A stretch of 20,950 nucleotides of DNA from a virus. The notes beneath the pieces are model-generated. The model ran no database searches and was not told the origin of the DNA. It worked only from the letters and a program-made list of their open reading frames with translations. Positions 3,204 to 20,910 of this stretch are shown in pieces. Location of the stretch: positions 1-20,950 of IMG/VR virus record IMGVR_UViG_3300006037_000048; one strand, written 5' to 3'. The translations under genes and the position numbers were made by a program. Every line of letters begins with the position of its first letter. The stretch's first letter is position 1.

Positions 3204-3204
3204 T

Positions 3205-3974: not shown

Positions 3975-4146
3975 CGTTGAAATAGGGTTTGGACAACTTG
4001 GCCCTGTTATCAAATGGGCAAGTGACTACTGTGCAAATAACTGGAGCTATGATATAATAGAGTCAGCAGGTAGAGATGCGGGAATGTATCGATTCTACTT
4101 TGATGAAGAAACAGACTACGTTAATTTTATACTTTGGAAAACATGA
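3946..4146 (+). CDS. Conserved small phage protein with non-ATG start
   Basis: Up to 66 aa. The core (KWASDYCANNW, AGRDAGMYRFYFD, YVNFILWK) resembles small T4-like phage proteins of the type 'W-helix then strand pair'. There is no in-frame ATG upstream of the conserved part. The options are GTG 3946, which overlaps dCMP deaminase by 29 bases, or ATT 3970, which would give a five-base overlap similar to the neighbours. The reading frame and the ATGA junction with the next gene support it being real, but the exact start is open. Confidence 0.65.
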   Translation: MLPNALFKIDVEIGFGQLGPVIKWASDYCANNWSYDIIESAGRDAGMYRFYFDEETDYVNFILWKT

Positions 4147-4394
4147 AATACTATACCTTCTACCGCGAGAGCAATAACTTTGATGACATTCTAAAAGACA
4201 TAGCCCTTAAAAAGTTTGTGACTGAAAAAACTCGATGGACACATTATTTACAGATTGGTATCAGCCTGTACAAGAAAGATGCCGAGAAGATTTTTAGTTA
4301 CATCACGTTAAAGTACGGTGATGAAATTAGAACCAATATCACTAAAGATTACTCACCCAAACCATACGTTGACTACGTACCCATCAGGAAATAA
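4143..4394 (+). CDS. Hypothetical protein, 83 aa
   Basis: Starts at ATG 4143 in an ATGA overlap with the preceding gene; a TTG nine bases upstream is less likely. It is Tyr-, Lys- and Thr-rich (YYTFYRESNNFDDILKD at the N-terminus), predicted alpha plus beta and soluble, with no cysteines and no membrane segment. I recognise no domain. Its place between two coupled genes suggests co-expression with the DUF3307-like membrane protein, which begins two bases after its stop. Confidence 0.7.
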   Translation: MKYYTFYRESNNFDDILKDIALKKFVTEKTRWTHYLQIGISLYKKDAEKIFSYITLKYGDEIRTNITKDYSPKPYVDYVPIRK

Positions 4395-4395
4395 T

Positions 4396-4764
4396 ATGAC
4401 TACCTCAATTTTTATCTTACTTATTCTTCTTCAAATCAAACATTGGTACATTGATTTCGTAAATCAATCAATGAACGAAGTTGTTAGCAAAGGCATCTAC
4501 GGAGATCGTGAGGGTGTTAATCATAGTGCAAAGCAAGGTATCGGCACTATGATAGCTATCGTACTAGCAGTTGGTACACCGTATATTGCATTCGCTGCAA
4601 TTCTTGGATTCTTAGATTTCGTATTGCACTATCATATTGATTGGACAAAAATGAATTATGGAAACAGGGATATTTCTACCCCTGCTTTTTGGAATCATCT
4701 TGGATTAGACCAGATGGCGCATCAACTTGTCTATCTGTTTATTGCTTGGGCAATGATTATCTAA
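4396..4764 (+). CDS. DUF3307-like integral membrane protein
   Basis: A 122-aa protein with three predicted membrane helices: about residues 4-17, 48-78 and 108-121. The pattern matches the DUF3307 family: an N-terminal hydrophobic helix followed by an aromatic/His stretch (HWYIDFVNQ), a histidine/Lys segment (GVNHSAKQG), FVLHYHIDWTK, and LDQMAHQLVYL near the end. Function in the family is unknown. The start at ATG 4396 follows the preceding stop by one base; a longer frame from 4318 would overlap that gene. Its end overlaps the converging minus-strand gene by eight bases with no terminator between them. Confidence 0.75.
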   Translation: MTTSIFILLILLQIKHWYIDFVNQSMNEVVSKGIYGDREGVNHSAKQGIGTMIAIVLAVGTPYIAFAAILGFLDFVLHYHIDWTKMNYGNRDISTPAFWNHLGLDQMAHQLVYLFIAWAMII

Positions 4765-4972
4765 TTGATCTACACTGCGGCTCACCTAAGTACAATCCTA
4801 GCAAAGCCCGGCTTATATTATCAGTTGATCCCGATAGAAAAATTGATTCAACAACTAATACAAATATGATCACTAAATTAGCTAGTGCCCATATTTGCCA
4901 CAAAGTCCTTAGTGGTATTGCTTCTATTACCCATTTAGAAATTTGGCAGATTTTCTCCCATAGTTTCTTCAT
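4757..4972 (-). CDS. Small membrane protein, 71 aa
   Basis: One clear hydrophobic helix at about residues 25-47 (QIWALANLVIIFVLVVESIF) follows a basic, amphipathic N-terminus (MKKLWEKICQISKW), giving a cytoplasmic-N single-pass layout. GAGGT lies at a good distance upstream of the ATG and supports the start. It is the last gene of a minus-strand group of membrane proteins, 19 bases after the DUF4337-like gene. The opposite strand is also open in part, but that frame has no good start. Confidence 0.6.
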   Translation of the reverse strand: MKKLWEKICQISKWVIEAIPLRTLWQIWALANLVIIFVLVVESIFLSGSTDNISRALLGLYLGEPQCRSIR

Positions 4973-4986
4973 ATAAATAGTACCTC

Positions 4987-5008
4987 ACTGGTTATAACCA
5001 TAACCAGT
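4987..5008. repeat. Perfect 9-bp inverted repeat (hairpin)
   Basis: ACTGGTTAT (4987-4995) and ATAACCAGT (5000-5008) are perfect complements separated by AACC. On the minus strand the hairpin covers the last codons and stop of the DUF4337-like gene and ends just before the GAGGT ribosome site of the next gene. No T-run follows, so an RNA processing, stability or translational-coupling element is likelier than a terminator. Confidence 0.6.
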
Positions 5009-5528
5009 AACCTTGCGCCATTAGAATTAATCCTAATGCACCAACCGCAATGCTACCAGTATACATTTTATTGTTAACTGCTAAAATACTTGCCGATAAC
5101 AATACGATTGCTAATTGAAATAGCATACCCGAGAAAGTTAGCCAAGGGCTGTGTAATCTTGCTTCATCACGTGCTGCTTCTTGTGCCTGTGCCTTTGCTA
5201 ATAATTCTTTCTTACCTTCGCCAGACTTAGGATCGCTTTCATAGCGGTCAATCTTAGCTTGTAGTTTTTCAATACGAACTTTGTCTTTTTCTTTCTTAGC
5301 ATCTTCTAATTGCCCTTCAGCAATAGTTTGCTTGATACTCTTTGACTGATAAAACCCATAGGTGTTACTCGCTTTGAGCAAGTTGGTTTGTGCCACACCA
5401 CTAAAGTTGTTAGACAAATAAGTATTGCCCGCCAAGAACAATGCCATAAAGACAATGACTAATCCAGCCTTATCTTTGATCTGTGCTTCACGTTCGCTAC
5501 GTGAAAGGGGTTTCTTTTCTTCTGCCAT
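4992..5528 (-). CDS. DUF4337-like membrane protein
   Basis: A 178-aa protein with a charged N-terminus, a membrane helix at about 21-38, a periplasmic-like or cytoplasmic coiled-coil middle (80-125, rich in Lys, Glu, Ala and Gln), and two C-terminal helices at about 130-150 and 157-177. The segment NTYGFYQSKSIKQ (55-67) matches the hallmark 'a..YQ.KSIKQ' of DUF4337, whose function is unknown. The start has AGGAG upstream and an AATAAATA late-promoter-like box before that. It lies between other membrane-protein genes on the same strand, suggesting an envelope-related group expressed late. Confidence 0.75.
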   Translation of the reverse strand: MAEEKKPLSRSEREAQIKDKAGLVIVFMALFLAGNTYLSNNFSGVAQTNLLKASNTYGFYQSKSIKQTIAEGQLEDAKKEKDKVRIEKLQAKIDRYESDPKSGEGKKELLAKAQAQEAARDEARLHSPWLTFSGMLFQLAIVLLSASILAVNNKMYTGSIAVGALGLILMAQGYWLWL

Positions 5529-5546
5529 AATGTTTCTCCTATTGTA

Positions 5547-5554
5547 TATTTATT
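5547..5554 (-). promoter_or_regulatory. T4-late-like promoter box AATAAATA
   Basis: On the minus strand the box AATAAATA differs by one base from the T4 late consensus TATAAATA. It lies 18 bases upstream of the DUF4337-like start and is followed by AGGAGAAAC. A very similar box plus AGGAGAAAC arrangement occurs before the 68-aa gene at 6652, which supports it being functional. Confidence 0.4.
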
Positions 5555-5559
5555 TAATA

Positions 5560-6177
5560 TTAATTTTTAGCATAGTCTGCTAATGCTTTCTTATCCTCAG
5601 CTAGCCTAGCTTGGTGTTGCCTGTATACTGATTGTCTACGTGCTTCTACTTTTTCTTCATATATTCTTTTATCTTCTATCGCACCGTATATTCCGACACC
5701 TGCCATAATAGTACAAAATGCAACAATAGAAAATCCTATAAAATACATAGCAATCATAAATTGATTTGCCATTTTTTTCTTATGTTCTAGTTGTCTTTCT
5801 TCTTCTTCACGTCTGGCCTGTGCTCTTTCCTTGAATAGTCGGTTACGTTCTTTAATCATATCCTCCCATATTTGCGGCTTACCCAGTTGCCAAATAATCA
5901 TATCTTTCAACTCTCGTTCGGCTTCACGCAATGAGTTACTGTGCATTGCTATCTGTAATGCCTCTTTACCCAACTCAGCATCAGTCTTTCCGAGCAATGC
6001 TGCCTTTACTTTTGCTTCGGTTCTAGCACGATGCACACTATCAGCCGAATCAAAGAAGGTGTTAAACTGGCCAGCAAGGCTATTGATATCCTTACCTAGA
6101 GCAATGGCTTGCTTGATGTGACTGACTGCGGATTGTGCTGCTGTAAAAGCCAAACCAATGGTGATAGGATCAAGCAT
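5560..6177 (-). CDS. Conserved phage coiled-coil membrane protein
   Basis: A 205-aa protein. The N-terminus (MLDPITIGLAFTAAQSAVSHIKQAI, then LGKDINSLAGQF) and the long helical, charged middle (60-135) fit a family I recall from T4-like aquatic phages with the same start 'MLDP'. A membrane helix lies at about 139-165 (FMIAMYFIGFSIVAFCTIMAG) and is followed by a basic coiled-coil tail. Function is unknown; a role at the cell envelope or in lysis timing is only a guess. It overlaps the 67-aa signal-peptide gene by eight bases, so the two are coupled. Confidence 0.75.
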   Translation of the reverse strand: MLDPITIGLAFTAAQSAVSHIKQAIALGKDINSLAGQFNTFFDSADSVHRARTEAKVKAALLGKTDAELGKEALQIAMHSNSLREAERELKDMIIWQLGKPQIWEDMIKERNRLFKERAQARREEEERQLEHKKKMANQFMIAMYFIGFSIVAFCTIMAGVGIYGAIEDKRIYEEKVEARRQSVYRQHQARLAEDKKALADYAKN

Positions 6178-6373
6178 TTTTCTTTTGATCCTTCTTAGTA
6201 GTATCAGGCTTAGACCACTCTAAACACCATACTGTACGATTGTATACGTCCCCACTCCAAGCCCAACGTAAGCACTGAGGACGATCTCTTAGCATTTCTG
6301 CTAGTATAGTCCCGGGGACTACTGTAGTGGTAATTGAACTGAGCAATAGGGTACTTAATATACCTCTTATCAT
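6170..6373 (-). CDS. Small exported Cys/Trp protein, 67 aa
   Basis: The N-terminal 25 residues (MIRGILSTLLLSSITTTVVPG) look like a signal peptide or anchor. The mature part carries RDRPQCLRWAWSGDVYNRTVWCLEW, with two cysteines flanking a Trp-rich segment that could form a disulfide. The pattern C-x-RWxWxGDVxNRxVxCLEW is one I recall in T4-like aquatic phages next to the 205-aa gene. The tail is very basic (KKDQKKNA). The ATG has GGAG upstream. Periplasmic location is inferred from the signal-like N-terminus. Confidence 0.75.
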   Translation of the reverse strand: MIRGILSTLLLSSITTTVVPGTILAEMLRDRPQCLRWAWSGDVYNRTVWCLEWSKPDTTKKDQKKNA

Positions 6374-6384
6374 TAGTTGCTCCG

Positions 6385-6406
6385 ATATGTATAGTTATAT
6401 ACATAT
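6385..6406. repeat. Perfect 9-bp inverted repeat over a promoter -10
   Basis: ATATGTATA (6385-6393) and TATACATAT (6398-6406) are perfect complements separated by GTTA. The dyad overlaps the -10 hexamer and predicted start point of the minus-strand promoter, a position typical of operators. It is AT-rich, so chance is a real alternative. Confidence 0.45.
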
Positions 6407-6424
6407 TTAGTTGACTTAGATCAA
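6396..6424 (-). promoter_or_regulatory. Sigma-70-like promoter for the membrane-protein group
   Basis: On the minus strand, TTGATC (complement of 6419-6424) and TATATA (6396-6401) are separated by 17 bases. The start of the 67-aa gene lies 22 bases downstream with GGAG between. The -10 is not a full consensus and the region is AT-rich, so confidence is moderate. Confidence 0.45.
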
Positions 6425-6445
6425 AAGATATATGTCGCTAGATAG

Positions 6446-6652
6446 CTAGACAGTGTTTTTTGCTATGTAGTCTTGAATTTTTTGTTCCGCTTCGGTAAAA
6501 CTAGTAGCAAAGACTTTAAATTTACCCCTGTTCTCATTGATAGTAGCGTTGAACGGAATGATGCCTGGAAGATGGCATCCTTCGGGAATATCTACTTCAA
6601 TGTCAAATTCCCGTAATTTGTTCAACTGATCTAAAATGAAAGTGGTTGCCAT
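6446..6652 (-). CDS. Hypothetical protein, 68 aa
   Basis: A soluble protein with an N-terminal helix (FILDQLNKLREF), a central strand region (EVDIPEGCHLPGIIPFNATINENRGKFKVFA) and a C-terminal helix (TEAEQKIQDYIAKN). This compact alpha-beta-alpha layout would suit a small DNA- or protein-binding fold, but no family is recognised. AGGAGAAACC upstream of the ATG supports the start. It is preceded by an AATAAATA late-promoter-like box. Confidence 0.75.
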   Translation of the reverse strand: MATTFILDQLNKLREFDIEVDIPEGCHLPGIIPFNATINENRGKFKVFATSFTEAEQKIQDYIAKNTV

Positions 6653-6668
6653 GGTTTCTCCTAATGTC

Positions 6669-6697
6669 TTGTATTTATTAAAATATACTGCTATAAT
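6669..6697 (+). promoter_or_regulatory. Sigma-70-like promoter, perfect -10
   Basis: TTGTAT (6669-6674) and TATAAT (6692-6697) are separated by 17 bases. The predicted start point is near 6704, which leaves only about 9 bases before the ATG at 6713. This spacing favours translation from the second ATG at 6731 or a near-leaderless start. Confidence 0.5.
6672..6679 (-). promoter_or_regulatory. T4-late-like promoter box AATAAATA
   Basis: A minus-strand AATAAATA lies 19 bases upstream of the 68-aa gene start and is followed by AGGAGAAACC. Its arrangement mirrors that at 5547. It diverges from a plus-strand GATAAATA box 20 bases away. Confidence 0.4.
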
Positions 6698-6699
6698 AA

Positions 6700-6707
6700 G
6701 ATAAATA
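6700..6707 (+). promoter_or_regulatory. T4-late-like promoter box GATAAATA
   Basis: GATAAATA differs by one base from the T4 late consensus and lies just upstream of the HAD nucleotidase gene. It overlaps the start region of the sigma-70-like promoter, so one of the two may be incidental. Confidence 0.35.
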
Positions 6708-6712
6708 TTTTA

Positions 6713-7270
6713 ATGAGGATACGAGACATTATGGAATCAGCTACAGACAAGATGCCCCATCTATACCTGGATATGGATGGAGTACAAGCCGACTTTTTTC
6801 AAGCATGGGCAGACTACGAGAATGTGCACCACTATAAGCACATCACTGACCACGAAGCGTCAATTGTAAAATTGGCTAGTGCAGGACCAGAACAAGTGTA
6901 CAAATTCTTCCGTGATTTGAAACCATTACACGGTGGCAATGCTATAGTAGAATGGCTACAGAAGAACAACATCCCATATACTGTACTGAGCGCTCCTATC
7001 AGAATTGAACCCGAAGCAAGTAAGCAGGGCAAGCGAGAGTGGTTAGATGCACACAATCCAGGCACAAGTAAAGACGCAATCTTCACTAGCGCCAAATACA
7101 AGTATGCAACCGCAGGTGGTCAACCCAATGTGCTAGTTGATGACTATGACAAGTACCTAAATGCATGGTCTGAACATGGTGGCATTGCCGTGAAGCACAT
7201 TGATGAGACCACACAAAACACTATCCAGCAATTGGAAAAGATTTACGCTCCCTATCTAGGACAACAATAA
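6713..7270 (+). CDS. HAD-family 5'(3')-deoxyribonucleotidase-like protein
   Basis: A 185-aa predicted nucleotide phosphatase. The HAD motifs are in order: DMDG at 20-23 with nucleophile D20 and D22, followed by VQADFF as in NT5C-type 5'-nucleotidases; motif II Ser at 93 (TVLSAP); motif III Lys near 107 (KREWLDAH); and motif IV LVDD at 141-144. The product would be a nucleoside from a dNMP or NMP. ATG 6713 has no clear SD, while ATG 6731 has GAGGA upstream, so the protein may begin at MESATD. The extra N-terminus MRIRDIMESA looks like a short T4-type capsid-targeting sequence. Confidence 0.8.
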   Translation: MRIRDIMESATDKMPHLYLDMDGVQADFFQAWADYENVHHYKHITDHEASIVKLASAGPEQVYKFFRDLKPLHGGNAIVEWLQKNNIPYTVLSAPIRIEPEASKQGKREWLDAHNPGTSKDAIFTSAKYKYATAGGQPNVLVDDYDKYLNAWSEHGGIAVKHIDETTQNTIQQLEKIYAPYLGQQ

Positions 7271-7271
7271 C

Positions 7272-7466
7272 ATGAGCAATGAATTACCCGAAGGTCATAT
7301 TGACAGCTATGAGGTCATCACTCAGAAAGATGATATAACCGGAGACATACTATTACCCATTCCCCCTCACTTGCTGAAAAAGCTAGGATGGAAAACTGGC
7401 GATGATATTCAGTTTGGGTTAGATGATGAAGGTCAGTTTGTACTGACGAAAGCAATTAAAGAATGA
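7272..7466 (+). CDS. AbrB/MazE-like small protein
   Basis: A 64-aa protein. Residues 23-60 (TGDILLPIPPHLLKKLGW, then KTGDDIQF and DDEGQFVLTK) read as a swapped-hairpin AbrB-type fold: strand, PxxLLxxLGW helix, GD turn, strand, then G-x-F-x-L-x-K. Proteins of this fold bind DNA as dimers or act as antitoxins; no toxin gene is adjacent, so a regulator or T4-like conserved unknown is likelier. A longer relative with the same domain is encoded at 16042-16512. It follows the nucleotidase by one base and overlaps the next gene by ATGA. Confidence 0.75.
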   Translation: MSNELPEGHIDSYEVITQKDDITGDILLPIPPHLLKKLGWKTGDDIQFGLDDEGQFVLTKAIKE

Positions 7467-7852
7467 CTTATACAATTAACAATACTATGGCATCCGTTCC
7501 GGTATACACTACCTCTATTAGTAATGGCACATACCTCACCGTTGGTGCAACTGGTACAACTGGTACTAATAGCATAAATTGGTCTAATCTCAGTTCTATT
7601 ACCGGTAGCACTAATCTCGCTGGCCAGTCATTAGAGGTAAAAGGTGATGCAAACTTTGACGGTGAAATTACTATTAAGGGTAAGAAGTTGTCCGAATTAC
7701 TAGAAAACATAGAATCACGACTAGCTATCCTTCACCCAAACGAAAAGCTAGAAGAAAAATGGGAAAATCTACGAGGCTTACGTGAGGCTTACGTAGCATT
7801 GGAAAAAGAAATCATTGAAAAAGAAGCAATGTGGGCAATATTAAAGCGATAA
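7463..7852 (+). CDS. Probable virion-associated protein, 129 aa
   Basis: The first 60 residues are Ser/Thr/Gly/Asn-rich (GATGTTGTNSINWSNLSSITG), like the beta-rich heads of phage fibre and decoration proteins. Residues 58-75 (LEVKGDANFDGEITIKGKKL) form a short repeat-like strand unit. The C-terminal half is a helical, charged coil (RLAILHPNEKLEEKWENLR, then ALEKEIIEKEAMWAILK), a pattern I recall from conserved T4-like aquatic phage proteins. No enzyme motif is present. The link to the virion is inference from composition and from the fibre gene nearby. Confidence 0.7.
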   Translation: MTYTINNTMASVPVYTTSISNGTYLTVGATGTTGTNSINWSNLSSITGSTNLAGQSLEVKGDANFDGEITIKGKKLSELLENIESRLAILHPNEKLEEKWENLRGLREAYVALEKEIIEKEAMWAILKR

Positions 7853-7855
7853 TGC

Positions 7856-7883
7856 TTGACTTTTAATCAGATCCGTGTATAAT
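7856..7883 (+). promoter_or_regulatory. Near-consensus sigma-70 promoter
   Basis: TTGACT (7856-7861) and TATAAT (7878-7883) are separated by 16 bases. It lies in a 63-base gap between the preceding stop and the 131-aa gene at 7916, and probably drives the genes from there to IF-1. Confidence 0.7.
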
Positions 7884-7915
7884 AGACTCATATCAACTAT
7901 GACTAAAGCTAAGCC

Positions 7916-8311
7916 ATGACTATGCATCTGATGCACCCTTCACTAACTATGGGTGGTAAGCGCAAGGGTAAAACTAAATTCAAGAATGCTGTTGAGGCCC
8001 AACGTGCCCGCGAACTTGATGCCTCTTGGAAAGACTTGCAAAATAAATGGGGCGTAGAGCAAGAAGAAAAGAAGCGTAATCGTGCGCTCAAAGCTGCTCC
8101 ATTGCAGTATAGTATTACTACGCCTACTCAACGAACAACTAAGCACTTCCCTTCTCTTAATACAGGTGAAGCAGGTGCTGGCACGTACAAAGAATCTCCT
8201 AAATACACAGGTACAAAAATGCTAGGTATCGGTCAACTGCATAAGAGCAATGCAGTTCCAGTATTCTGTGACCAAGATGCAATTGATATCGCAAGGATGC
8301 GCCGTGGCTGA
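7916..8311 (+). CDS. Conserved phage hypothetical, 131 aa
   Basis: A basic, soluble protein. The N-terminal block MGGKRKGKTKFKNAVEAQ, a helix with DLQNKWGVEQEEKKRNRAL, and the C-terminal block TKMLGIGQLHKSNAVPVF followed by [10 protein letters not shown] match a family widespread in tailed phages, function unknown. The LGIGxLHKSNxVPVF segment is the most conserved part. ATG codons at 7916, 7922 and 7931 are all possible starts, and no strong SD is visible. It is the first gene behind a near-consensus promoter and overlaps the next gene by eight bases. Confidence 0.75.
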   Translation: MTMHLMHPSLTMGGKRKGKTKFKNAVEAQRARELDASWKDLQNKWGVEQEEKKRNRALKAAPLQYSITTPTQRTTKHFPSLNTGEAGAGTYKESPKYTGTKMLGIGQLHKSNAVPVFCDQDAIDIARMRRG

Positions 8312-8573
8312 TTTTACATATTACTGTGAGGTCACACTTGACCGTGCTGATATTAGGCCTGGCACCTATTCATTCACAACTGACGGGCCTCGTTCTTTAT
8401 TGAGATTCAATAGACTTACCACAGTTAGCGACAAAGTTTGGCGTCAAGGTCCACGTGGTGGTGTAAAGATTATCAAAGAGCGTACTACTGGCATATATCA
8501 GTATGTAACCAAAGATGAAGAAGAAATGAAGAAATTCATGTGGGCAAAGTTGCAAGCCCGAGTATTTAAATAA
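8304..8573 (+). CDS. Hypothetical protein, 89 aa, GTG start
   Basis: I choose GTG 8304 because AAGGA (8293-8297) lies at ideal spacing and the overlap with the preceding gene is only eight bases; an ATG at 8250 would overlap by 62 bases without an SD. The protein is mostly beta-strand with many basic residues ([28 protein letters not shown]) and a C-terminal Lys-rich helix. No family is recognised; RNA or DNA contact is possible from charge alone. The IF-1 gene follows after 19 bases. Confidence 0.7.
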
Positions 8574-8592
8574 GGAGCTTAAGGCAAATAGT

Positions 8593-8808
8593 ATGGCAAA
8601 AGAAGAAGGTGTTAGAATGGACGGTACGGTAACTGATGTGTTGCCCAATGCTGTTTTTAGAGTAGTATTAACCTCAGGTCCTACGGTGACCGGGTATATA
8701 TCAGGTAAAATGCGTCAACATGCAATCAAAATATTGCTAGGTGATGTAGTTGAGATTGAGTTCAGTCCATATGACTTGAGCAAGGGTCGTATTACACGTC
8801 GCCGATAA
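8593..8808 (+). CDS. infA: Translation initiation factor IF-1
   Basis: A 71-aa homologue of bacterial IF-1, which binds the ribosomal A site of the 30S subunit and assists IF-2 and IF-3 in start-codon selection. The whole S1-type OB fold is present: [45 protein letters not shown] and [13 protein letters not shown] line up without gaps over almost the full length of bacterial IF-1 (72 aa in E. coli). The SD AAGG at 8581-8584 lies eight bases before the ATG, with AAGGAG further upstream. No truncation or frameshift is seen. IF-1 genes are uncommon in phages, and this copy probably came from a host. Whether it is functional cannot be judged from sequence. Confidence 0.95.
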
Positions 8809-8819
8809 TCGTTAGCCAC

Positions 8820-8847
8820 GTTCATACACACTAAATACTGTATGAAC
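8820..8847 (+). promoter_or_regulatory. 9-bp hairpin enclosing the Fe-S carrier start codon
   Basis: GTTCATACA (8820-8828) and TGTATGAAC (8839-8847) are perfect complements around a 10-base loop. The ATG at 8842 lies inside the right arm. The loop holds CTAAATA (8831-8837), which resembles T4-late-like boxes. The hairpin could hide the start codon if transcription begins upstream, or be bypassed if it starts within the loop region. Confidence 0.5.
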
Positions 8848-9168
8848 ATCACAATATCAGACTCTGCCCGCAATAAAATTGCAGATATCCTAGCGGAAGA
8901 AAATAATCCAGCAATACACCTACGTATGTTTGTACAAGGTGGCGGTTGCAGTGGATTTAGTTACGGCTTTACCCTAGATGAAGAAATAAATGAAGATGAC
9001 TGGCAGATTCCGGCCGGTAATAGTAGTGTATTAGTTGACAGTATGAGCGCACAATATCTAGAGGGTGCTGAGGTTGACTACGTAGAAGAACTAATGGGTG
9101 CTAGTTTCAAGATAAAGAATCCCCAAGCACAATCAACGTGCGGCTGCGGTAGCTCATTTAGTGTTTGA
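8842..9168 (+). CDS. A-type Fe-S cluster carrier (IscA/ErpA/HesB family)
   Basis: A 108-aa protein that would carry and deliver Fe-S clusters to apo-enzymes. The three ligand cysteines of the family are in place: C36 in [11 protein letters not shown], and C100 and C102 in STCGCGSSF near the C-terminus. Flanking blocks ([14 protein letters not shown] and [13 protein letters not shown]) are typical. Length equals bacterial IscA/ErpA. There is no obvious SD; the ATG lies in the right arm of a hairpin. It sits next to the IF-1 gene, so two host-type genes are adjacent. Such carriers are known as auxiliary metabolic genes of some aquatic phages. Confidence 0.9.
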
Positions 9169-9187
9169 GATAAATACTAAATAAGGA
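9169..9187 (+). promoter_or_regulatory. Tandem late-promoter-like boxes and ribosome site
   Basis: GATAAATA (9169-9176) is followed directly by CTAAATA (9177-9183), both close to the T4 late consensus, and then AAGGA (9183-9187) seven bases before the fibre ATG. The box begins at the base after the Fe-S carrier stop codon. The position before a probable structural gene fits late expression. Confidence 0.45.
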
Positions 9188-9194
9188 TGAATAT

Positions 9195-10910
9195 ATGGCT
9201 ATTTCAGGACAACAACACATACAAGTAGGGGTAGAAAATCAAGCAACAGGCGCAGATAGTCTATTTTCTGCATTTACCAAAACAGAAGAAAACTTCACTA
9301 CACTATTTTCAACAGCTAGTCCTTATCAAAATTTTACAGCAGGTAATGGCATACTTACTGAAAAATCCGGAAATACAGTTACTATTACCAATACAGGAGT
9401 ACTAAATGTACTTGCAGGAACAGGCGTTACTGTATCGAACACAGCCGGTAACGTTACTATCTCTGCATCGGGTAACGGAAATACAGGTGTTACTAGCGTT
9501 GGCGTAACATCAAGCACACTCACTGTCTCAAATAGTCCAGTTATCAGTGCAGGTATCATTGGTATTGAATTGCCTATGATAGAACAAGGACTACAATTTA
9601 GTCCGGGTCAATATATTGCACCCACAATGACCGTAGACGCATACGGTAGAATCACTAGCATCACAAACACTGCATCAGCCGGTACAGTAACTAGTGTAGC
9701 AATGCAAGCGTTCGGCAATGGAATCGCAGTTACCGGTAGTCCTATTATCGGTAACGGAACAATTGTAATTACCAATACAGGTGTGACTCGTCTTACAGCT
9801 GGTACTGGTATTGAGCTAAGTGGAATCACTGGTGAAATTACTATCTCATCTACACTGAAAGCGGCTGGCACAGTAACTCGTGTTGATGTAGCGAGTAATA
9901 CGTTGACTGTATTAAACAGTCCAATCACCCAATCAGGAACTATCACAGTAGAGATTCCTAATGATATTACGTTAGTCGGCAATCTAGTCGCAGCAAAGAT
10001 TCTTAGTAACACTACTGCGAATGTAACGGGTAATGTAAACGCAGGCAATTTAGTTACAGCAGGAGTTGCCAATGTAACAGGTAACGTAATTGGTGGTAAT
10101 TTGACCACTGCCGGACAAGTTGTTGCTACTGGTAACATCACTGGTGGTAATCTCATTACAACCCGTACCGTACAGGGTGTAACGGTGACAACTTCAGGTG
10201 CTAAGATAACTAGTGCATGGGGAACAACTGGTATAGGCTTTATTGCAACAGGTGCGACATATACTGATAATTCAACTCTTGCATCAGGCAATGTAGCAAA
10301 TGCACATATTCATACTATTGCTAGACCAACAATTGCTGCTGCAAATTATACTGTCACGGTGACAAAAGCTGCATCATTCTATGTTGCAGGCGCACCGATC
10401 GCAGGTGGCAATATCACACTCACAAATCCGTATGCGATACAAGTTGCAGCAGGAAATGTACAAGTGGACACTTTGACCACATCAACTAATTCTACAACCG
10501 GCGCATTAAGGGTTGCGGGTGGCGTAGGTATCGGTGAGAACTTAAACGTTGGTGGCAATGTTTCAGTGATTGGATCAGTTACTACTGATACTCTAGTAGC
10601 CAATCTAGTGTCACAATCAGTAGCTGCATCAGTATCAAGTACAGGAGCAACTCAATCAGCGGCAGTTGCATTGACCAAACAGTTGAATGTTATTACTGCC
10701 TCAATCAACGGAGCTAATAGTGCAGTACTGCCTACTCCAACTACAGGTGTTTCAATCAAAATAGTAAACACCAGTGCAAACAGTGTAAACGTTTTTCCTG
10801 CTGCAGGTGGCACAATTAATTCATTGGCTGCAAACGCTGCGTTTGTACTAACGTCAAACAGTAGGGTAGAATTTAGTGCGTCATCAAGTACGCAATGGTA
10901 CACATTCTAA
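9195..10910 (+). CDS. Repetitive tail-fibre-like structural protein
   Basis: A 571-aa protein rich in Gly, Thr, Val, Asn and Ser with almost no Cys, predicted to be all beta. N-terminal residues 1-60 include QVGVENQATGADSLFSAFTK and AGNGI, a start style I recall from aquatic phage fibres. Residues 66-127 and 194-255 are two ungapped copies of a 62-residue module. Residues 276-326 are three copies of a 17-residue TGN/GNL repeat. TGALRVAGGVGI near 434-445 is typical of fibre shafts. The C-terminal ~90 residues form a probable head domain ending QWYTF. Receptor binding is inferred. Late boxes precede it and a strong terminator follows. Confidence 0.8.
   Translation: MAISGQQHIQVGVENQATGADSLFSAFTKTEENFTTLFSTASPYQNFTAGNGILTEKSGNTVTITNTGVLNVLAGTGVTVSNTAGNVTISASGNGNTGVTSVGVTSSTLTVSNSPVISAGIIGIELPMIEQGLQFSPGQYIAPTMTVDAYGRITSITNTASAGTVTSVAMQAFGNGIAVTGSPIIGNGTIVITNTGVTRLTAGTGIELSGITGEITISSTLKAAGTVTRVDVASNTLTVLNSPITQSGTITVEIPNDITLVGNLVAAKILSNTTANVTGNVNAGNLVTAGVANVTGNVIGGNLTTAGQVVATGNITGGNLITTRTVQGVTVTTSGAKITSAWGTTGIGFIATGATYTDNSTLASGNVANAHIHTIARPTIAAANYTVTVTKAASFYVAGAPIAGGNITLTNPYAIQVAAGNVQVDTLTTSTNSTTGALRVAGGVGIGENLNVGGNVSVIGSVTTDTLVANLVSQSVAASVSSTGATQSAAVALTKQLNVITASINGANSAVLPTPTTGVSIKIVNTSANSVNVFPAAGGTINSLAANAAFVLTSNSRVEFSASSSTQWYTF
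9390..9575 (+). repeat. Fibre module, copy 1 of 62-residue repeat
   Basis: Encodes residues 66-127 (starts NTGVLNVLAGTG, ends GIELP). It aligns without gaps to residues 194-255; shared positions include AGTG, TIS, STLTV/NTLTV and NSP. This is an internal duplication in the fibre gene. Confidence 0.75.
9774..9959 (+). repeat. Fibre module, copy 2 of 62-residue repeat
   Basis: Encodes residues 194-255 (starts NTGVTRLTAGTG, ends VEIP), the second copy of the module at 9390-9575. A partial unit (GTVTSV to NSP-like GSP) lies between the two. Confidence 0.75.
10020..10172 (+). repeat. Three tandem 51-base repeats in the fibre gene
   Basis: Three in-frame 17-codon units start at 10020, 10071 and 10122, with the core TGN-x-x-x-GNL. 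Units one and two are closest; the third is more diverged. Such units usually form a triple beta-helix or beta-spiral shaft and can change copy number by slippage. Confidence 0.8.
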
Positions 10911-10916
10911 CCAAAT

Positions 10917-10941
10917 AAAAAGCCCCTTTCGGGGCTTTTTT
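10917..10941. terminator. Strong bidirectional rho-independent terminator
   Basis: AAAAAGCCCC (10917-10926) pairs perfectly with GGGGCTTTTT (10931-10940) around TTTC. On either strand the stem ends in a U-run. It lies between the ends of the plus-strand fibre gene and the minus-strand 68-aa gene, so it serves both converging units. Confidence 0.93.
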
Positions 10942-11146
10942 ATTTTACTTTCATTAGCATGTAATTTGTAAATTTATGATCACACATTGCAGGCACTTCA
11001 ATGTAGGGGTCTTCCAAATAGAAGGGGCAACCCTGTTTCCATTTACCATTTACCTTAAAGTATTTCAATTCAGCTAAATCTTTTTTGTCAGCTGGATTGA
11101 ACTCTCGGCGTTCAGCAAACGCTTTACGGAATGTGGTTAAGATCAT
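10940..11146 (-). CDS. Conserved hypothetical, 68 aa
   Basis: A soluble protein with a basic N-terminal helix (MILTTFRKAFAERREF) and a C-terminal block CPFYLEDPYIEVPAMC with two cysteines 15 residues apart. The CPFYLExPxxxVPxMC pattern looks conserved and could bind a metal, but only two cysteines are present. The stop lies in the arm of the shared terminator. The start is directly after the preceding stop (TAA then ATG), so it is the last gene of a four-gene run. No function is recognised. Confidence 0.75.
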   Translation of the reverse strand: MILTTFRKAFAERREFNPADKKDLAELKYFKVNGKWKQGCPFYLEDPYIEVPAMCDHKFTNYMLMKVK

Positions 11147-11335
11147 TTATTCGCGGGGCATGTCGGTAGCGTCTTTGATAACTGCGTAGACTTCATCCAA
11201 TGTAGTACACATGACCTTTGCAGTCTTCCAGTCGTCTTTATCGTCACGACCGGACACTTCAACCATGAAGCCGTTGTCGTACATGTTGACAGTCAGGCTA
11301 TCACCGCACTTTGCAAGTTTAGTAGAGAGTTTCAT
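11147..11335 (-). CDS. Conserved T4-like hypothetical, 62 aa
   Basis: A small, mainly beta protein: MKLSTKLAKCGDSLTVNMYDNGFMVEVSGRD is followed by DDWKTAKVMCTTLDEV and an acidic C-terminal helix. The NMYDNGFMVEVSGRDxxDxWKTxKxMC stretch matches a pattern I recall from T4-like phages, function unknown. It shares one base with the preceding stop (TAATG) and abuts the next gene, so all three are translated together. Confidence 0.75.
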   Translation of the reverse strand: MKLSTKLAKCGDSLTVNMYDNGFMVEVSGRDDKDDWKTAKVMCTTLDEVYAVIKDATDMPRE

Positions 11336-11727
11336 TATGCTGGGTCCACGTTGTGCAATGCTTGTGCAAGCACTTGTTCGGGGGTCAATTCTTTCTTAGC
11401 ACGTGCCTTGATTGCATCAATGCTAGGCTTTGCTTTTGCCTTAGTCACTTTGACCTTGACGATACCTTTGTTTGCTTCCTTAGAACGGTCCTCAATCGCA
11501 TCATTGATCGTAGCCTGATCGGACGGGGATTGAAAATCAGCGTGTGCTTGCAGATACGCAAGTGCCTCAAGTTTTGTCATTGAAGTAGGCAACTCCATCA
11601 AGTCAATGCGTGATGCACCACCTTTAGAGAATTGTTTCACCCGACGAACGAGGTCATCCGTGAAGCGAACTTTTGTAGAAGTACCATGTGTAGTGATACC
11701 AGCGACTTTGAAAGATTGATTAGCCAT
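11335..11727 (-). CDS. Hypothetical basic protein, 130 aa
   Basis: Residues 1-30 are beta-rich (FKVAGITTHGTSTKVRF), residues 45-80 are helical (MTKLEALAYLQAHADF), and residues 88-115 are Lys/Ala-rich (VKVKVTKAKAKPSIDAIKARAKKE) like a flexible nucleic-acid-contacting linker. The rest is helical (TPEQVLAQALHN). No family is named. AAGGAA precedes the ATG, and a consensus-like promoter lies about 60 bases upstream, making this the first gene of its unit. Confidence 0.7.
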   Translation of the reverse strand: MANQSFKVAGITTHGTSTKVRFTDDLVRRVKQFSKGGASRIDLMELPTSMTKLEALAYLQAHADFQSPSDQATINDAIEDRSKEANKGIVKVKVTKAKAKPSIDAIKARAKKELTPEQVLAQALHNVDPA

Positions 11728-11788
11728 TGTGTTCCTTATAGATAAGAGCTAAGTTTAAAAATGTGCCGATATCATCAGCACTGTTACA

Positions 11789-11817
11789 ATGATAACACAG
11801 TTTGGCATTATTGTCAA
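11789..11817 (-). promoter_or_regulatory. Minus-strand sigma-70 promoter (array member 1)
   Basis: A perfect -35 TTGACA (complement of 11812-11817) and a -10 TATCAT (11789-11794) are separated by 17 bases. It drives the unit 11727 to 10940. The leader is about 55 bases, longer than at other array members. Confidence 0.75.
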
Positions 11818-11835
11818 GCAGTGTGTTACCCATTA

Positions 11836-12087
11836 TTAGTTGCGAACAAGTTTCGGGTGCGTTCCCGGAACCAATACATAATCGTTACGTGTGCCCCAAC
11901 TTCCCATTATGGCTGTCATTTTAGGTCCAGGGATAGTTTTGGGATTTTCTGTCCCTTCAACTACACTCATTAGGGCTTTGGCGCCGGCAGATACATTAGT
12001 TCTTGGAATTTCTTGCGTTTTTCGCAAAGCAAAACCATCAAGTACACCTTCAATCATACCTGCATAGTACTCATCATTAGTTGTCAT
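11836..12087 (-). CDS. Hypothetical protein, 83 aa
   Basis: A soluble protein: helical N-terminus (DEYYAGMIEGVLDGFALRK), a middle with VSAGAKALMSVVEG, and a Gly/Pro-rich C-terminus (PGPKMTAIMGSWGTRNDY). No motif is recognised. AAAGGAAATG lies just before the start. It is a single-gene unit behind a promoter with two full consensus hexamers. Confidence 0.7.
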   Translation of the reverse strand: MTTNDEYYAGMIEGVLDGFALRKTQEIPRTNVSAGAKALMSVVEGTENPKTIPGPKMTAIMGSWGTRNDYVLVPGTHPKLVRN

Positions 12088-12117
12088 ATCATTTCCTTTA
12101 AGGAAGTTTAAAAATTA

Positions 12118-12146
12118 ATTATAACACCAAACACTTTTTGTGTCAA
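12118..12146 (-). promoter_or_regulatory. Minus-strand sigma-70 promoter, full consensus (member 2)
   Basis: TTGACA (complement of 12141-12146) and TATAAT (complement of 12118-12123) have exactly 17 bases between. Both hexamers match the consensus perfectly, so it should be very strong with a host-type sigma factor. Confidence 0.88.
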
Positions 12147-12156
12147 GCCGTTTTTA

Positions 12157-12300
12157 TTAGGCTTCGCCCAAAAAGATTGCCTTACCGATTGGGCTCATAC
12201 CTCGCCCCATACCTTCTGCAACCCAGCAAGTATCACCTGAAAGGACCATATCCTGATAGTAGGATTCACTCATAAAAACTCGGACCCGATAACTGTTCAT
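12157..12300 (-). CDS. Small hypothetical protein, 47 aa
   Basis: Begins at ATG 12300, one base after the preceding stop; a longer form starting at 12339 would overlap that gene by 38 bases and is rejected. The product (MNSYRVRVFMSESYYQDMV, then SGDTCWVAEGMGRG) looks like a small beta-rich protein with a Gly/Met-rich end. No family is recognised. It is coupled to the conserved 136-aa gene upstream and ends 11 bases before promoter member 2. Confidence 0.6.
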   Translation of the reverse strand: MNSYRVRVFMSESYYQDMVLSGDTCWVAEGMGRGMSPIGKAIFLGEA

Positions 12301-12301
12301 A

Positions 12302-12712
12302 TTATGCACCAACTGTGTAAGGTTTGTTCCATTGACCAACGTTCACGTCAACGTACCAGCCCACGTCAAAGTAGTCGGTTTGAATGTCGCTGCGGTCGTG
12401 ATTGCCACCATTCATAACTGCAAAAACTTCTTGCATGAATGCTTTAGCGTCACCGCTGAAATGATTTTGATAGTGATAAGGATTCACGTCCAGAGACTTT
12501 TCCGCTTTATTGAAACCTCGTGCAGAGAGATACGGATCAGCACTAACGGTATCGTTGAAGTTGCCGATAAAATCAATAGAACCACTCTTGATGTTCAAAA
12601 CCAAAGTCATGTGATTGCGCACAGCAAGCGAACCTTTGACGTTGTACTTTTTCAAAATTGCTTTGATAGCTGGGGCACGTTCTGCTTTGCGTTCTTGATT
12701 CATGTAAGCCAT
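12302..12712 (-). CDS. Conserved phage hypothetical, 136 aa
   Basis: A soluble protein with a strongly patterned sequence that I recall from many T4-like and other tailed phages, function unknown. Blocks are the N-terminal MAYMNQERKAERAPAIKAIL, LAVRNHMTLVLNIKSG with DFIGNFN, LDVNPYHYQNHFSGDAK, and MNGGNHDRSDIQTDYFDVGW with YVDVNVGQWNKPY at the end. The NPYHYQ and NHDRSD clusters would suit metal or nucleic-acid contacts but are not a named motif. AGGAC precedes the start within a repeated promoter leader. Confidence 0.8.
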   Translation of the reverse strand: MAYMNQERKAERAPAIKAILKKYNVKGSLAVRNHMTLVLNIKSGSIDFIGNFNDTVSADPYLSARGFNKAEKSLDVNPYHYQNHFSGDAKAFMQEVFAVMNGGNHDRSDIQTDYFDVGWYVDVNVGQWNKPYTVGA

Positions 12713-12745
12713 TTGATAGTCCTGTTCTTTACTGTTTAAGATTCT

Positions 12746-12774
12746 ATTATATCACCGAAACCATTTAATGTCAA
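12746..12774 (-). promoter_or_regulatory. Minus-strand sigma-70 promoter (member 3)
   Basis: TTGACA (complement of 12769-12774) and TATAAT (12746-12751) are separated by 17 bases. Spacer and leader (AGAATCTTAAACAGTAAAGA) are nearly identical to those of the promoter at 14258, so this is a copy of a repeated cassette. It drives the 136-aa and 47-aa genes. Confidence 0.88.
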
Positions 12775-12777
12775 CCT

Positions 12778-12999
12778 TTAAAATGCTTCACACATGTTAG
12801 GGAAGACACCGGTTTCTTCAAGAATATCAAGGGCACGAGTTCCGCCTGCGTATGCTTCGTCTTCTGTAGCAAAAACCGCAGCACTTTCAACCTCAGAGCA
12901 GACATATTCTTGTCCGGGAATACCCTTGTAACTTACTAGGGTAATACTCCACTTATTGTTGAATTTGCTTTGAGCCACTTGTCCGAGTTCTGTACGCAT
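12778..12999 (-). CDS. Hypothetical protein, 73 aa
   Basis: Predicted alpha/beta: strands KWSITLVSYK and EYVCSEVE, then AAVFATEDEAYAGGTRALDIL as a helix. The FATEDEAxxxG pattern resembles small phage proteins in which residues after the strand form a helix used for dimerisation, but that is only shape. A GGACATTGAA leader precedes the ATG. It is a single-gene unit between two promoters and ends four bases from the next -35 hexamer. Confidence 0.65.
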   Translation of the reverse strand: MRTELGQVAQSKFNNKWSITLVSYKGIPGQEYVCSEVESAAVFATEDEAYAGGTRALDILEETGVFPNMCEAF

Positions 13000-13032
13000 T
13001 TCAATGTCCTGTTCTTTACTGTCTATGTATGT

Positions 13033-13061
13033 ATTATAGCAGAATATCCATTTAATGTCAA
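13033..13061 (-). promoter_or_regulatory. Minus-strand sigma-70 promoter (member 4)
   Basis: TTGACA (complement of 13056-13061) and TATAAT (13033-13038) are separated by 17 bases. The leader keeps GACAGTAAAGAACAGGA in common with the promoters at 12746 and 14258 although the spacer differs, showing that parts of the cassette have recombined or diverged. Confidence 0.87.
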
Positions 13062-13063
13062 AT

Positions 13064-13201
13064 TTAGGCTAGAACGGTAAGCACTGCGAAGGTGTTGAAA
13101 ATGACTCCGATTCCGCTTATCCACCATGCAAGACTCCAAGTTCTGTCTATAGCTACAAAGTAGGCACAGGCTATGAGGCACAATAAATTGAGGATAAGCA
13201 T
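13064..13201 (-). CDS. Very small membrane protein, 45 aa
   Basis: Nearly the whole product is hydrophobic: residues 1-18 (MLILNLLCLIACAYFVAI) and 23-45 (SLAWWISGIGVIFNTFAVLT) would form two short membrane helices joined by DRTW. AAGG lies five to six bases before the ATG. It follows the 54-aa gene by seven bases and ends two bases before the -35 of promoter member 4. Its size lies below common gene-finding cut-offs. A holin-like role is possible from size and topology, but nothing else supports it. Confidence 0.6.
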   Translation of the reverse strand: MLILNLLCLIACAYFVAIDRTWSLAWWISGIGVIFNTFAVLTVLA

Positions 13202-13208
13202 AGGAACC

Positions 13209-13373
13209 TTAAGAGTTGACAGTTTTGAATGGACTCAGTTCTTCATCCGAAGACTCGGAAACTTCGTACACCCATTTGATGGGCACTTGTAGATATTGAG
13301 CGATTTTGACAGGTGAATCGCCCTGTTCCAGCATCAGTTCAATATCGTAGTAGAGTTCAGACATTCGGCTCAT
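13209..13373 (-). CDS. Small HTH-like protein, 54 aa
   Basis: A compact helical protein: MSELYYDIELMLEQGDSPVKIAQYL then VPIKWVYEV reads as helix, turn (GDS), helix, turn and recognition helix. The same layout (IExxLxxGxSPxxIAxxLxVPxxWVYE) occurs in small phage proteins, which suggests DNA binding or protein-protein contact. The Ser/Asp-rich tail is probably flexible. The start is in a four-base ATGA overlap with the preceding membrane-protein gene. Function is unknown. Confidence 0.65.
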   Translation of the reverse strand: MSRMSELYYDIELMLEQGDSPVKIAQYLQVPIKWVYEVSESSDEELSPFKTVNS

Positions 13374-13585
13374 TTTGATTTGCTCACGGTAGATTTAAAC
13401 AAGAAACCACTCAGTACGGTCAAGCCCCATGCTTGCAACCAAGTCACTTCGGCCACTCCTGCGATGGCGCCGACCAAGCAACCGTTCCACAACATGTACA
13501 CCGGCCAACTCAGCAAGAAACTGAGAAACAGAATGCCCATGATACCAAGAACAACTGCACCAACGACAACGACAACTTTTTCCAT
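13370..13585 (-). CDS. Small membrane protein, 71 aa
   Basis: Residues 4-27 (VVVVVGAVVLGIMGILFLSF) and 50-66 (WLQAWGLTVLSGFLF) are two predicted membrane helices, with PVYMLWNGCLVGAIAG between them possibly a re-entrant segment. The LWN and ITxxQAxGLxxLS-type patterns resemble small T4-like phage membrane proteins. A basic tail (KSTVSKSK) would face the cytoplasm. AGGAAAA precedes the start. It is the second gene of the unit led by the 90-aa SH3-like gene. Confidence 0.75.
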   Translation of the reverse strand: MEKVVVVVGAVVLGIMGILFLSFLLSWPVYMLWNGCLVGAIAGVAEVTWLQAWGLTVLSGFLFKSTVSKSK

Positions 13586-13607
13586 GATTTTTCCTAGAGT
13601 TTAAAAA

Positions 13608-13880: not shown

Positions 13881-13912
13881 TTTGATTCCTTGTTTCGACT
13901 GTTTAAGATTCT

Positions 13913-13941
13913 ATTATATACCCAAAGTGATTTATTGTCAA
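13913..13941 (-). promoter_or_regulatory. Minus-strand sigma-70 promoter (member 5)
   Basis: TTGACA (complement of 13936-13941) and TATAAT (13913-13918) are separated by 17 bases. AGAATCTTAAACAGT follows the -10, as at 12746. The TGA within TTGACA is also the stop codon of the 95-aa gene upstream. Confidence 0.88.
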
Positions 13942-14225: not shown

Positions 14226-14257
14226 TTTAGTTCCTGTTCTTTACTGTCTAAGATTCT

Positions 14258-14286: not shown

Positions 14287-14291
14287 CCTTT

Positions 14292-14915: not shown

Positions 14916-14944
14916 TTCCAGTTCCTTATCGTTTCAATACATGT

Positions 14945-14973: not shown

Positions 14974-14977
14974 CCTT

Positions 14978-15130: not shown

Positions 15131-15137
15131 AACTCAT

Positions 15138-19890: not shown

Positions 19891-20910
19891 TTAGTCGCCG
19901 CCCTTGAGCAAAAACTTGTTAGAAATTGCCTTGAAGGACACTTGTTTTTCGTTACACTTGAACACAAGACCTTCACGTTCTGGTCCATTGATATCGCCCA
20001 TTACAGACTTACCTTCTGCAAGTTGCAGCAATGATTCAACTGATTCAATTAGCTCAGTGTTGCGGTGAAGCACAGGGCAGTGATTCAATCCAAACACTTC
20101 TACAAACGCCTTACGTTCAGCAGGAGTGTAGTAACGTCCTGCATCAATATCGTAAATGTCGTAAACATAAAAGTCTTGGTCACGCATCTTGTACTTGTTA
20201 CCTTGAATACCGTTGCCAATCAGTTCACCTTGAACTGCAAGGTTACCACCTGCAATCTTCAACTTTTCTTCTAGGTCGTGCTTAAGAGCAGCACGCCACA
20301 GTGAATTATCTTCGTTGCGTTTGAGGTCAAGGTTGCGTGAACACACACCAACATAGTCATCAATACGATAAACAGTCATTGACGAACCATCTAACTTTTC
20401 AGTCACTTCCCAAGATAGATTCTCAGTCTTCCACACTTCCAACTCTACTGACAAGTTTTGAATACGCTCTTGGTCAGTCTTGGGAATCACTGAAGGGAAC
20501 ATGCCCTTGACTTCGCCTGCAAGTGCTGCGGGGATTGGTGCTTCGTACTTGGTGATACCGAGAAATTCAGATACATCATCACCGATCGCCATATCATTTG
20601 GAAATAACTTCACAGATTCTGGAGACAGTAACAGCCCTTGCGACAATTGACCACGCAACTTCACAGTACGGAGACGTTCGCCTTCAACACCTTCAAAAGT
20701 CTTAGCATAGTGTCCGGACTTGGTCAAGAACGGTGCGATAGTAGAGGGGATGAACGAATCAATTTCGCAATATACTGCCAGATCACCAGCAGTATATTCA
20801 CCCTTCTTTACTACGCAGGTCCAGCCACCTACGATAGCGCATTCAATTGCATCAGCGCCCACAATAGGACGCAGTGCATCAATCTTTCTAATAGTTGCCA
20901 TCTTACGCAT
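19891..20910 (-). CDS. RNA ligase, two-domain DraRnl (Rnl5)-type
   Basis: A 339-aa ATP-dependent RNA ligase, close to the 342 residues of the Deinococcus enzyme. The N-terminal ~150 residues form an OB-like module. The nucleotidyltransferase domain has motif I EKLDG at 171-175 (AMP-accepting K172), Ia SRN at 191-193, III QGELIG near 227-232, IIIa FYVYDIY, IV EGLVFK at 313-318 and V VSFKAISNKF near 324-333. It seals RNA nicks, where present using 3'-OH and 5'-phosphate ends. ATG 20910 has AAGGAAATTA upstream; 20901 is an alternative. Together with the kinase it could form an RNA-repair pair. Confidence 0.9.
   Translation of the reverse strand: MRKMATIRKIDALRPIVGADAIECAIVGGWTCVVKKGEYTAGDLAVYCEIDSFIPSTIAPFLTKSGHYAKTFEGVEGERLRTVKLRGQLSQGLLLSPESVKLFPNDMAIGDDVSEFLGITKYEAPIPAALAGEVKGMFPSVIPKTDQERIQNLSVELEVWKTENLSWEVTEKLDGSSMTVYRIDDYVGVCSRNLDLKRNEDNSLWRAALKHDLEEKLKIAGGNLAVQGELIGNGIQGNKYKMRDQDFYVYDIYDIDAGRYYTPAERKAFVEVFGLNHCPVLHRNTELIESVESLLQLAEGKSVMGDINGPEREGLVFKCNEKQVSFKAISNKFLLKGGD

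Follow-up and report, generated by a model that had tools for sequence, protein, structure and literature searches.

The window, our term for the whole stretch of DNA analysed, corresponds to a 20,950-base viral record. Across positions 1-18,805 it is 100% identical to an IMG/VR contig of 73,670 bases (G015). Its features around a gene for translation initiation factor 1 (IF-1, infA) are listed in Table 1. The predicted protein matched the infA equivalog model TIGR00008 with an E value of 2.7e-28 and 97.7 bits (curated cut-off 61.15 bits), its residues 3-70 covering model positions 1-68 of 69. It also matched PF01176 (E 3.8e-21, 74.9 bits, cut-off 30.2) and the unnamed family phrog_30201 (E 4.7e-28). 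All 12 distinct sequences found by searching the PDB are named initiation factor 1.

Table 1 Features of the window at and around the IF-1 gene, with the RNA ligase gene near its end.
Feature	Position	Strand	Evidence
TAAATA box 5 nt before the 6713 ATG; presumed promoter of the gene run ending with IF-1	6702..6707	+	position
5'(3')-deoxyribonucleotidase (NT5C)-like, first gene of the run	6713..7270	+	PF06941 33.9 bits (cut-off 24.8); phrog_2643
MazE/AbrB-like small protein	7272..7466	+	PF04014 20.8 bits, under cut-off 24.7
129-aa protein, function unassigned, block-conserved	7463..7852	+	cluster in 70/82 sequence sets compared
131-aa protein, function unassigned	7916..8311	+	phrog_27048, E 6e-22
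107-aa ORF, uncertain start	8250..8573	+	no PHROG match; cluster in 16/82 sets
AAGGAG, Shine-Dalgarno-like, upstream of IF-1	8572..8577	+	sequence; anti-SD energy -7.6 kcal/mol
Second AAGG upstream of IF-1	8581..8584		sequence
Phage IF-1 (infA)	8593..8808	+	71 aa, ATG start, TAA stop
TAAATA box, 4 nt ahead of ErpA's ATG; predicted late promoter, leaderless mRNA	8832..8837	+	sequence
ErpA-type iron-sulphur insertion protein	8842..9168	+	NF010147 153.5 bits (cut-off 117)
TAAATA box 18 nt before the 9195 ATG, AAGGATG between	9171..9176	+	sequence
Second TAAATA box, 11 nt before the 9195 ATG	9178..9183	+	sequence
Structural/fibre-like protein, 571 aa	9195..10910	+	weak phrog_697 (head and packaging), E 2.6e-6, 46 residues
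RNA ligase	19891..20910	-	PF09414, phrog_968

An AlphaFold model, built on an alignment of 51 phage sequences, had a mean pLDDT of 90.9. It showed strands at residues 7-17, 21-26, 31-36, 52-58 and 61-70, with a helix at 38-42 between strands 3 and 4. Its top structural match was E. coli IF-1 on the 30S subunit (9fco_I; Z 14.8, 0.9 Å over 70 residues, 57% identity), and Foldseek gave an E value of 2.9e-9 against E. coli IF-1 on 30S. A sequence-only reading had described the protein as a full-length IF-1 and had singled out a 10-residue segment, which is intact at residues 58-67. That description held, with a TIGR00008 score above the cut-off, a model close to E. coli IF-1 and retained 30S-facing residues. 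The two outcomes it had named against itself, no relation to IF-1 in profile searches and loss of the 30S-binding surface, were not seen. Judged by profiles and model, the gene is a genuine, complete IF-1 with the predicted IF-1 OB fold. IMG/VR yielded 112 confirmed relatives, of which 80 were kept (63-100% identical, 55 distinct protein sequences), and the median dN/dS of the phage genes was 0.085 (276 pairs among 43 genes; rough values, because dS is high). With these relatives and this purifying selection, the ORF is not a chance one.

Residues were compared between the 55 distinct phage rows and 101 bacterial rows, the latter selected for similarity to phage IF-1. According to the structural account in PMC10913371, IF-1 contacts helix 44, the 530 loop and S12 of the ribosome through K39, R41, R46, Y60, R64 and R66. 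In the window protein, K39, R41, Y60, K64, R66 and R70 are retained, while Lys replaces Arg at 46, Tyr replaces His at 35, and residue 44 is Ala. Across the phage rows R41, Y60, R66 and R70 are invariant (55/55), and basic residues alternate at position 39 (Lys 41, Arg 14), position 46 (Lys 48, Arg 7) and position 64 (Lys 50, Arg 5). In these residues, as in length, fold and above-cut-off profile score, the phage protein resembles bacterial IF-1. It differs in its identity of at most 64% to the bacterial sequences found, in being phage-encoded beside superoxide dismutase (SOD) and ErpA genes, and at three positions. Residue 44 is acidic or small in the phages (Asp 43, Glu 8, Ala 2, Asn 2) but Tyr, Arg or Phe in 100/101 bacterial rows, the sole exception being a Glu on a Rickettsiales chromosome. 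Residue 54 is Glu in 52/55 phage rows versus 2/101 bacterial ones, and residue 69 is Arg or Lys in all 55 phage rows versus Tyr, Phe, Trp or His in 98/101 bacterial rows. In the same structural account, the short helix (38-43) sits in the groove formed by the 530 loop and helix 44, and R41 and R46 touch A1492/A1493, which places residue 44 in the contact loop (PMC10913371). A change there may alter IF-1 function, and residues 44, 54 and 69, distinctive in nearly all phage rows, suggest some specialisation.

Two other roles were weighed against these residues. An OB-fold protein that has left initiation could now work as an RNA chaperone or transcription anti-terminator: IF-1 has a nucleic-acid-binding OB fold, and E. 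coli IF1 has chaperone and anti-termination activity. We consider this very unlikely, since the 30S-facing residues are strongly constrained, it is the infA equivalog model that the protein matches, and RsgA_N (Pfam), the RsgA N-terminal OB domain, scored 18 bits, under its cut-off of 27. Alternatively, the substitutions at 44 and 69 could change release or affinity and make the protein a competitor that displaces host IF-1, slowing host translation or evading an initiation-directed defence instead of aiding phage translation. Shut-off by an intact-looking factor would strike phage messages too, and we give this reading equally little credence.

The anti-SD energy upstream of IF-1 was the strongest among 39 hand-chosen starts in the window, 15 of which had strong energies (≤ -4.5) and 17 weak ones (> -3); the background mean was -1.0 kcal/mol for 2000 random 18-mers. 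Upstream regions of IF-1 were SD-like in 43/55 relatives, with a background of 8%. The genes from 6713 to 8808 follow one another in the same direction with little space between them; co-transcription of IF-1 with NT5C is therefore probable. Among loci with enough sequence, the 131-aa gene was found at most 700 nt upstream of IF-1 in 60/77 and NT5C at most 3 kb upstream in 53/63. ErpA followed downstream on the same strand in 71/80 loci, at most 2.5 kb away in 53 of the 73 with enough sequence. An Fe/Mn SOD-like gene (PF02777, E 2.9e-23) lay between IF-1 and ErpA in 54 loci; none of the window's ORFs belongs to the SOD cluster. A TAAATA box stood 3-7 nt before the NT5C start in just 6/45 distinct genes, with 7 more at 2 nt, and 4-7 nt before ErpA in 13/46 distinct relatives. 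Judging from its position, IF-1 would be expressed late in infection, although the small number of NT5C genes with a close box speaks against this.

This SOD-like gene (e.g. L004:471-1022, L016:11911-12459, L008:8772-9338) has relatives encoded on at least 598 IMG/VR stretches. The four metal-ligand positions appear by eye to be retained. In some loci a second, more distant Fe-S biosynthesis gene (PF01521) directly precedes ErpA (L008:9737-10060, L010:11178-11501).

Searching 50,697 phage records with IF-1 by tblastn gave 36 matches. They comprised 15 Prevotella Lak phages, six Bacteroides phages (167-179 kb), Sinorhizobium phage Phosso (57%), two uncultured huge phages, and matches of doubtful origin: H2 and H3, named Acinetobacter phage, and unannotated Listeria, Enterococcus and Staphylococcus records. 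H2 (CAKLQH020000005) was rejected as a bacterial chromosome (asd, truA, leuBCD, infA). The sequence-only reading had called translation initiation factors rare in phages and mostly a matter of very large genomes. For IF-1 both points were borne out, at least one of the few matches even being a host chromosome, but the smaller Bacteroides phages have an IF-1-like gene too. Phage IF-1 as such is already reported, as IF1 in huge phages (PMC7162821) and as "translation initiation factor 1A" in Jug phages (PMC12363816). Huge, Jug, Lak and Bacteroides phages share with the window an IF-1-family gene in a large phage. Unlike the clade's, the Lak and Bacteroides copies are 43-46% identical to the window IF-1, and those of Lak-C1 and DAC19 retain Tyr at the place of residue 44.

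Among cultured phages, the terminase points to Phosso, PA5oct-like phages and Agrobacterium phage Atu_ph07 as kin. Phosso, besides its similar IF-1, supplied the top-ranked cultured match to the terminase of one relative, G008 (49.8%). It differs in the neighbours of the gene, in its promoter spacing (below) and in Asn44, Asn46 and Tyr69 of its IF-1. The window's IF-1 is best assigned to a jumbo phage whose clade has kinship with the T4-like giant phages and probably lives in lake water, judging by the habitats behind IMG/VR sample numbers and by similarity to published lake phages.

Within the clade, infA scored above the cut-off in all 16 larger records queried, which had been chosen for having it. 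IF-1 was nearby in 41 of the 58 SOD-selected loci with enough flank, and present in 4 of 16 records mostly picked for having no IF-1 nearby. It was absent from the eight longest terminase-selected records besides G001. The largest of these, G633 (264 kb), lacked both IF-1 and the whole NT5C-IF-1-SOD-ErpA block; such IF-1-negative clade records are or may be fragments. Two IF-1 copies in one phage were considered for G001 (IMGVR_UViG_3300027749_002876; 524,565 bases) and rejected. The record aligns with itself over a long inverted and colinear stretch, ~14-157 kb versus 388-522 kb, and has two IF-1 genes, two bS21 genes and one terminase. Given this inverted duplication, it is in our view probably an assembly join of two related phages, and neither its size nor its second IF-1 should be trusted. 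G003, G007 and G633 had no such duplication (close-paralogue genes 9/422, 15/354 and 6/239).

The closest bacterial IF-1s reached 64% identity among the best 80 of 511 relatives in a first search, 60% in a second (191/198 genomes matched) and 61% in a third (387/398 matched). The second sampled the class of G017, a record titled Gammaproteobacteria whose IF-1s look Gemmatimonadota-like. With phage relatives at 63-100% identity and the bacterial IF-1s found reaching 64%, recent capture from a host was unsupported. In the IF-1 tree (72 columns), 38/79 inner branches were open and 30/36 phage rows clustered at 97/84. A quick tree with two long rows removed held all 36 phage rows together with support 53. 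Topology tests left both a Phosso grouping (p-AU 0.555) and a gammaproteobacterial one (0.23) unrejected. The hope that infA phylogeny would reveal the donor and likely host was disappointed: the tree of this 71-residue protein places no donor, and no host was found.

A gp55-type sigma factor (phrog_234) was encoded in 8/16 clade records, among them 8 of the 9 above 200 kb, and in 0/14 control genomes; it was not found in G015, which is a fragment. Spacing between TAAATA and the start codon was bimodal in G003, G007, G001 and G015, given here in that order. TAAATA stood at 4-5 nt in 24, 28, 47 and 6 genes. SD-like sequences were found in 0/27, 2/37, 2/64 and 0/6 genes of the short class (3-7 nt), and in 24/38, 24/38, 47/71 and 2/3 of the long class (14-26 nt). 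Across 55 loci with 1131 genes, the short class held 108 genes (SD in 4) and the long class 105 (SD in 85). The window itself has just two short-spacing boxes, before 6713 and 8842. The terminase gene had a box 4-7 nt before ATG in 79/80 relatives, with SD in 0/79 and 62 distinct upstreams, in-frame ATGs up to 60 nt from the matched start being allowed. For the SOD gene, a box lay 4-7 nt before a possible start in 38/38 loci of the 55-loci set, and at most 60 nt upstream of the start first used in 34/38; in the partly overlapping SOD-selected set, it lay 4-7 nt before a possible start in 54/80 loci. With gene categories set by matches to a chosen set of 53 annotated proteins, boxes of either class in G003 and G007 occurred at 14/26 structural or packaging genes and 0/13 replication or nucleotide genes; one weak rIIB-like match also had a short-spacing box. 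Short-class genes were rare in comparison phages: 1/48 in T4, 1/52 in PA5oct and 0/52 in Phosso (50 kb each), and 0/27 in BUCT-ZZ01, 0/32 in PhiW-14 and 0/31 in C48C1 (18-kb pieces).

TAAATA near ATG might be a start-codon sequence preference of an A+T-rich genome and not a promoter. Some permuted hexamers that overlap the shifted box also rise at 4-5 nt, and our method takes the nearest among several candidate starts. The permuted controls, however, reached means of only 2.7, 4.2, 7.1 and 0.7 genes in the four records (maxima 8, 15, 21 and 4). T4 and PA5oct, whose G+C is as low or lower, had one such gene each, the terminase spacing is kept over all its distinct upstream sequences, and the boxes stand at structural, not replication genes. 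We regard a mere sequence preference as improbable.

The boxes resemble T4 late promoters (TATAAATA, gp55) in their A+T-rich core, the gp55-type sigma and their place at structural genes. They differ in the large class with a box 4-7 nt from ATG without SD, of which the 50 kb of T4 had the single case given above. In T4, the late box of 8 bp begins at -13, roughly one turn of the helix ahead of the transcription start (PMC2988020). By this geometry, transcription from a box ending 5 nt before AUG would begin with the A of that codon, and a box at 6-7 nt would give a 1-2 nt leader. Short-spacing late genes are thus predicted, by analogy with T4, to yield leaderless mRNAs, and their spacing, AUG start and lack of SD agree with the features of such messages. 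Their AUG-only starts were not counted as evidence because the long class is nearly all ATG too (37/38, 33/38, 66/71 and 3/3). The sequence-only reading had seen several leaderless or weak-SD messages in the window. This gained much stronger support from the whole clade than from the window, with its two short-spacing boxes.

Parallels in print are partial. Lactococcus cremoris is reported to have bimodal leader lengths with none of 4-14 nt, a rough parallel only. In-vitro work, as summarised in a review, has IF1 and fMet-tRNA stimulating leaderless translation. A separate text states that AUG is required for it (PMC4611024). The AR9 authors call phage transcripts "often leaderless", and the existence of leaderless mRNA in phages is therefore no novelty in itself.

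Start-codon hairpins were considered as a general control and found weak: among short-spacing genes, 44% and 54% had the start region paired upstream, compared with 23% and 30% of the rest. At the SOD promoter, inverted repeats of at least 6 bp flank the box in 25/59 loci versus 7% at random places. In some SOD promoters (e.g. L049, L040) the repeats flanking TAAATA extend over the start codon, as though to conceal the AUG in read-through mRNA until transcription starts from the late promoter.

Other initiation components were sought in the clade. C1-A72 is a hallmark of initiator tRNAs, and tRNA-Met genes with this pair occurred once each in G003 and G007 and twice in the joined record G001. 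In the anticodon stem, none of the four has three G-C pairs in a row, and a comparison of the initiator-like phage tRNA with E. coli DNA gave no close similarity. Ribosomal protein bS21 was encoded in 11 of 12 records, and IF-3 in none of the 12. In lake phages with predicted Bacteroidetes hosts, phage-encoded bS21 is described as late-expressed and as acting at the anti-SD region (PMC9723584), so it is not a pointer to leaderless initiation. Those phages are like the clade in making an initiation component, in lake habitat and in bS21; they are unlike it in their predicted hosts, and a text search of that paper for IF-1 returned none.

The tRNA genes number 45 in G003, 33 in G007 and 56 in G001. 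One G003 tRNA was read as having anticodon CTA, and TAG occurs in frame within the gp55 match of G007; since 4-6% of long ORFs end in TAG, this codon is not fully recoded. A GOLLD RNA (201 bits) lies inside a tRNA cluster of G007 (L293:4359-4824), overlapping one tRNA.

Taken as a whole, the observations are probably best explained by a jumbo-phage IF-1 that acts on the host 30S subunit late in infection and also aids late leaderless-type mRNAs. In this proposal IF-1 would be made late, from the gene run beginning at 6713, and would bind the A site of the host 30S, replacing or adding to host IF-1. It would sustain initiation as host gene expression fades, and the conserved substitutions at 44 and 69 would adjust how it touches helix 44 and the 530 loop. 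Sequence and model show the fold, the 30S-facing residues, the conservation and the purifying selection; the best-supported step from there is a working IF-1 that would act on host ribosomes. A bolder step is that the phage IF-1 may help ribosomes to start on late mRNAs; for many of these the predicted 5' end lies at the AUG or at most 2 nt from it.

A plainer account would have the phage IF-1 as a host-like top-up late in infection with no message preference, the leaderless-type promoters being an unrelated trait of the clade. The contact residues are retained, and the title of Kapralou 2008, as cited in PMC4611024, has IF-1s of other species replacing E. coli IF1 in vivo. Clade fragments where IF-1 was not found carry short-spacing boxes too, as do 19 genes of G633; Phosso has IF-1 and none in the 50 kb examined. 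Residues 44, 54 and 69, at which almost every phage row departs from the bacterial ones, speak against a plain supplement, which we rate as plausible though short of an even chance.

Aid to leaderless messages is attractive because promoter spacing and the initiation kit agree in direction. In its full form, AUG-start promoters together with an IF-1 altered in its decoding-centre loop, an initiator-like tRNA that lacks the customary three G-C pairs, bS21 and no IF-3 would shift host ribosomes from SD-led messages to a leaderless late programme. Against this link, the IF-1 gene is itself SD-led and Phosso combines IF-1 with 0/52 short-spacing genes. Because the IF-1-negative fragments, G633 and Phosso break the pairing, the co-occurrence of IF-1 and short spacing holds at clade level only and is perhaps loose. 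With the pairing broken and the start sites predicted, we hold the full programme to be possible but rather doubtful.

Nothing in print was found on this lake-phage branch of IF-1, on its altered residues or on the layout of its late promoters. Among the titles and abstract openings listed by open-access searches, none described the clade's IF-1 or its leaderless late promoters.

Even without a link to IF-1, the late-type box 4-7 nt before the terminase AUG in nearly all relatives makes a strong prediction. If the link is true, a virus would alter the ribosome's choice of messages through promoter geometry matched to an initiation factor and an initiator tRNA that it encodes itself. The clade would then offer a natural test of the long-open role of IF-1 in leaderless versus SD-led initiation.
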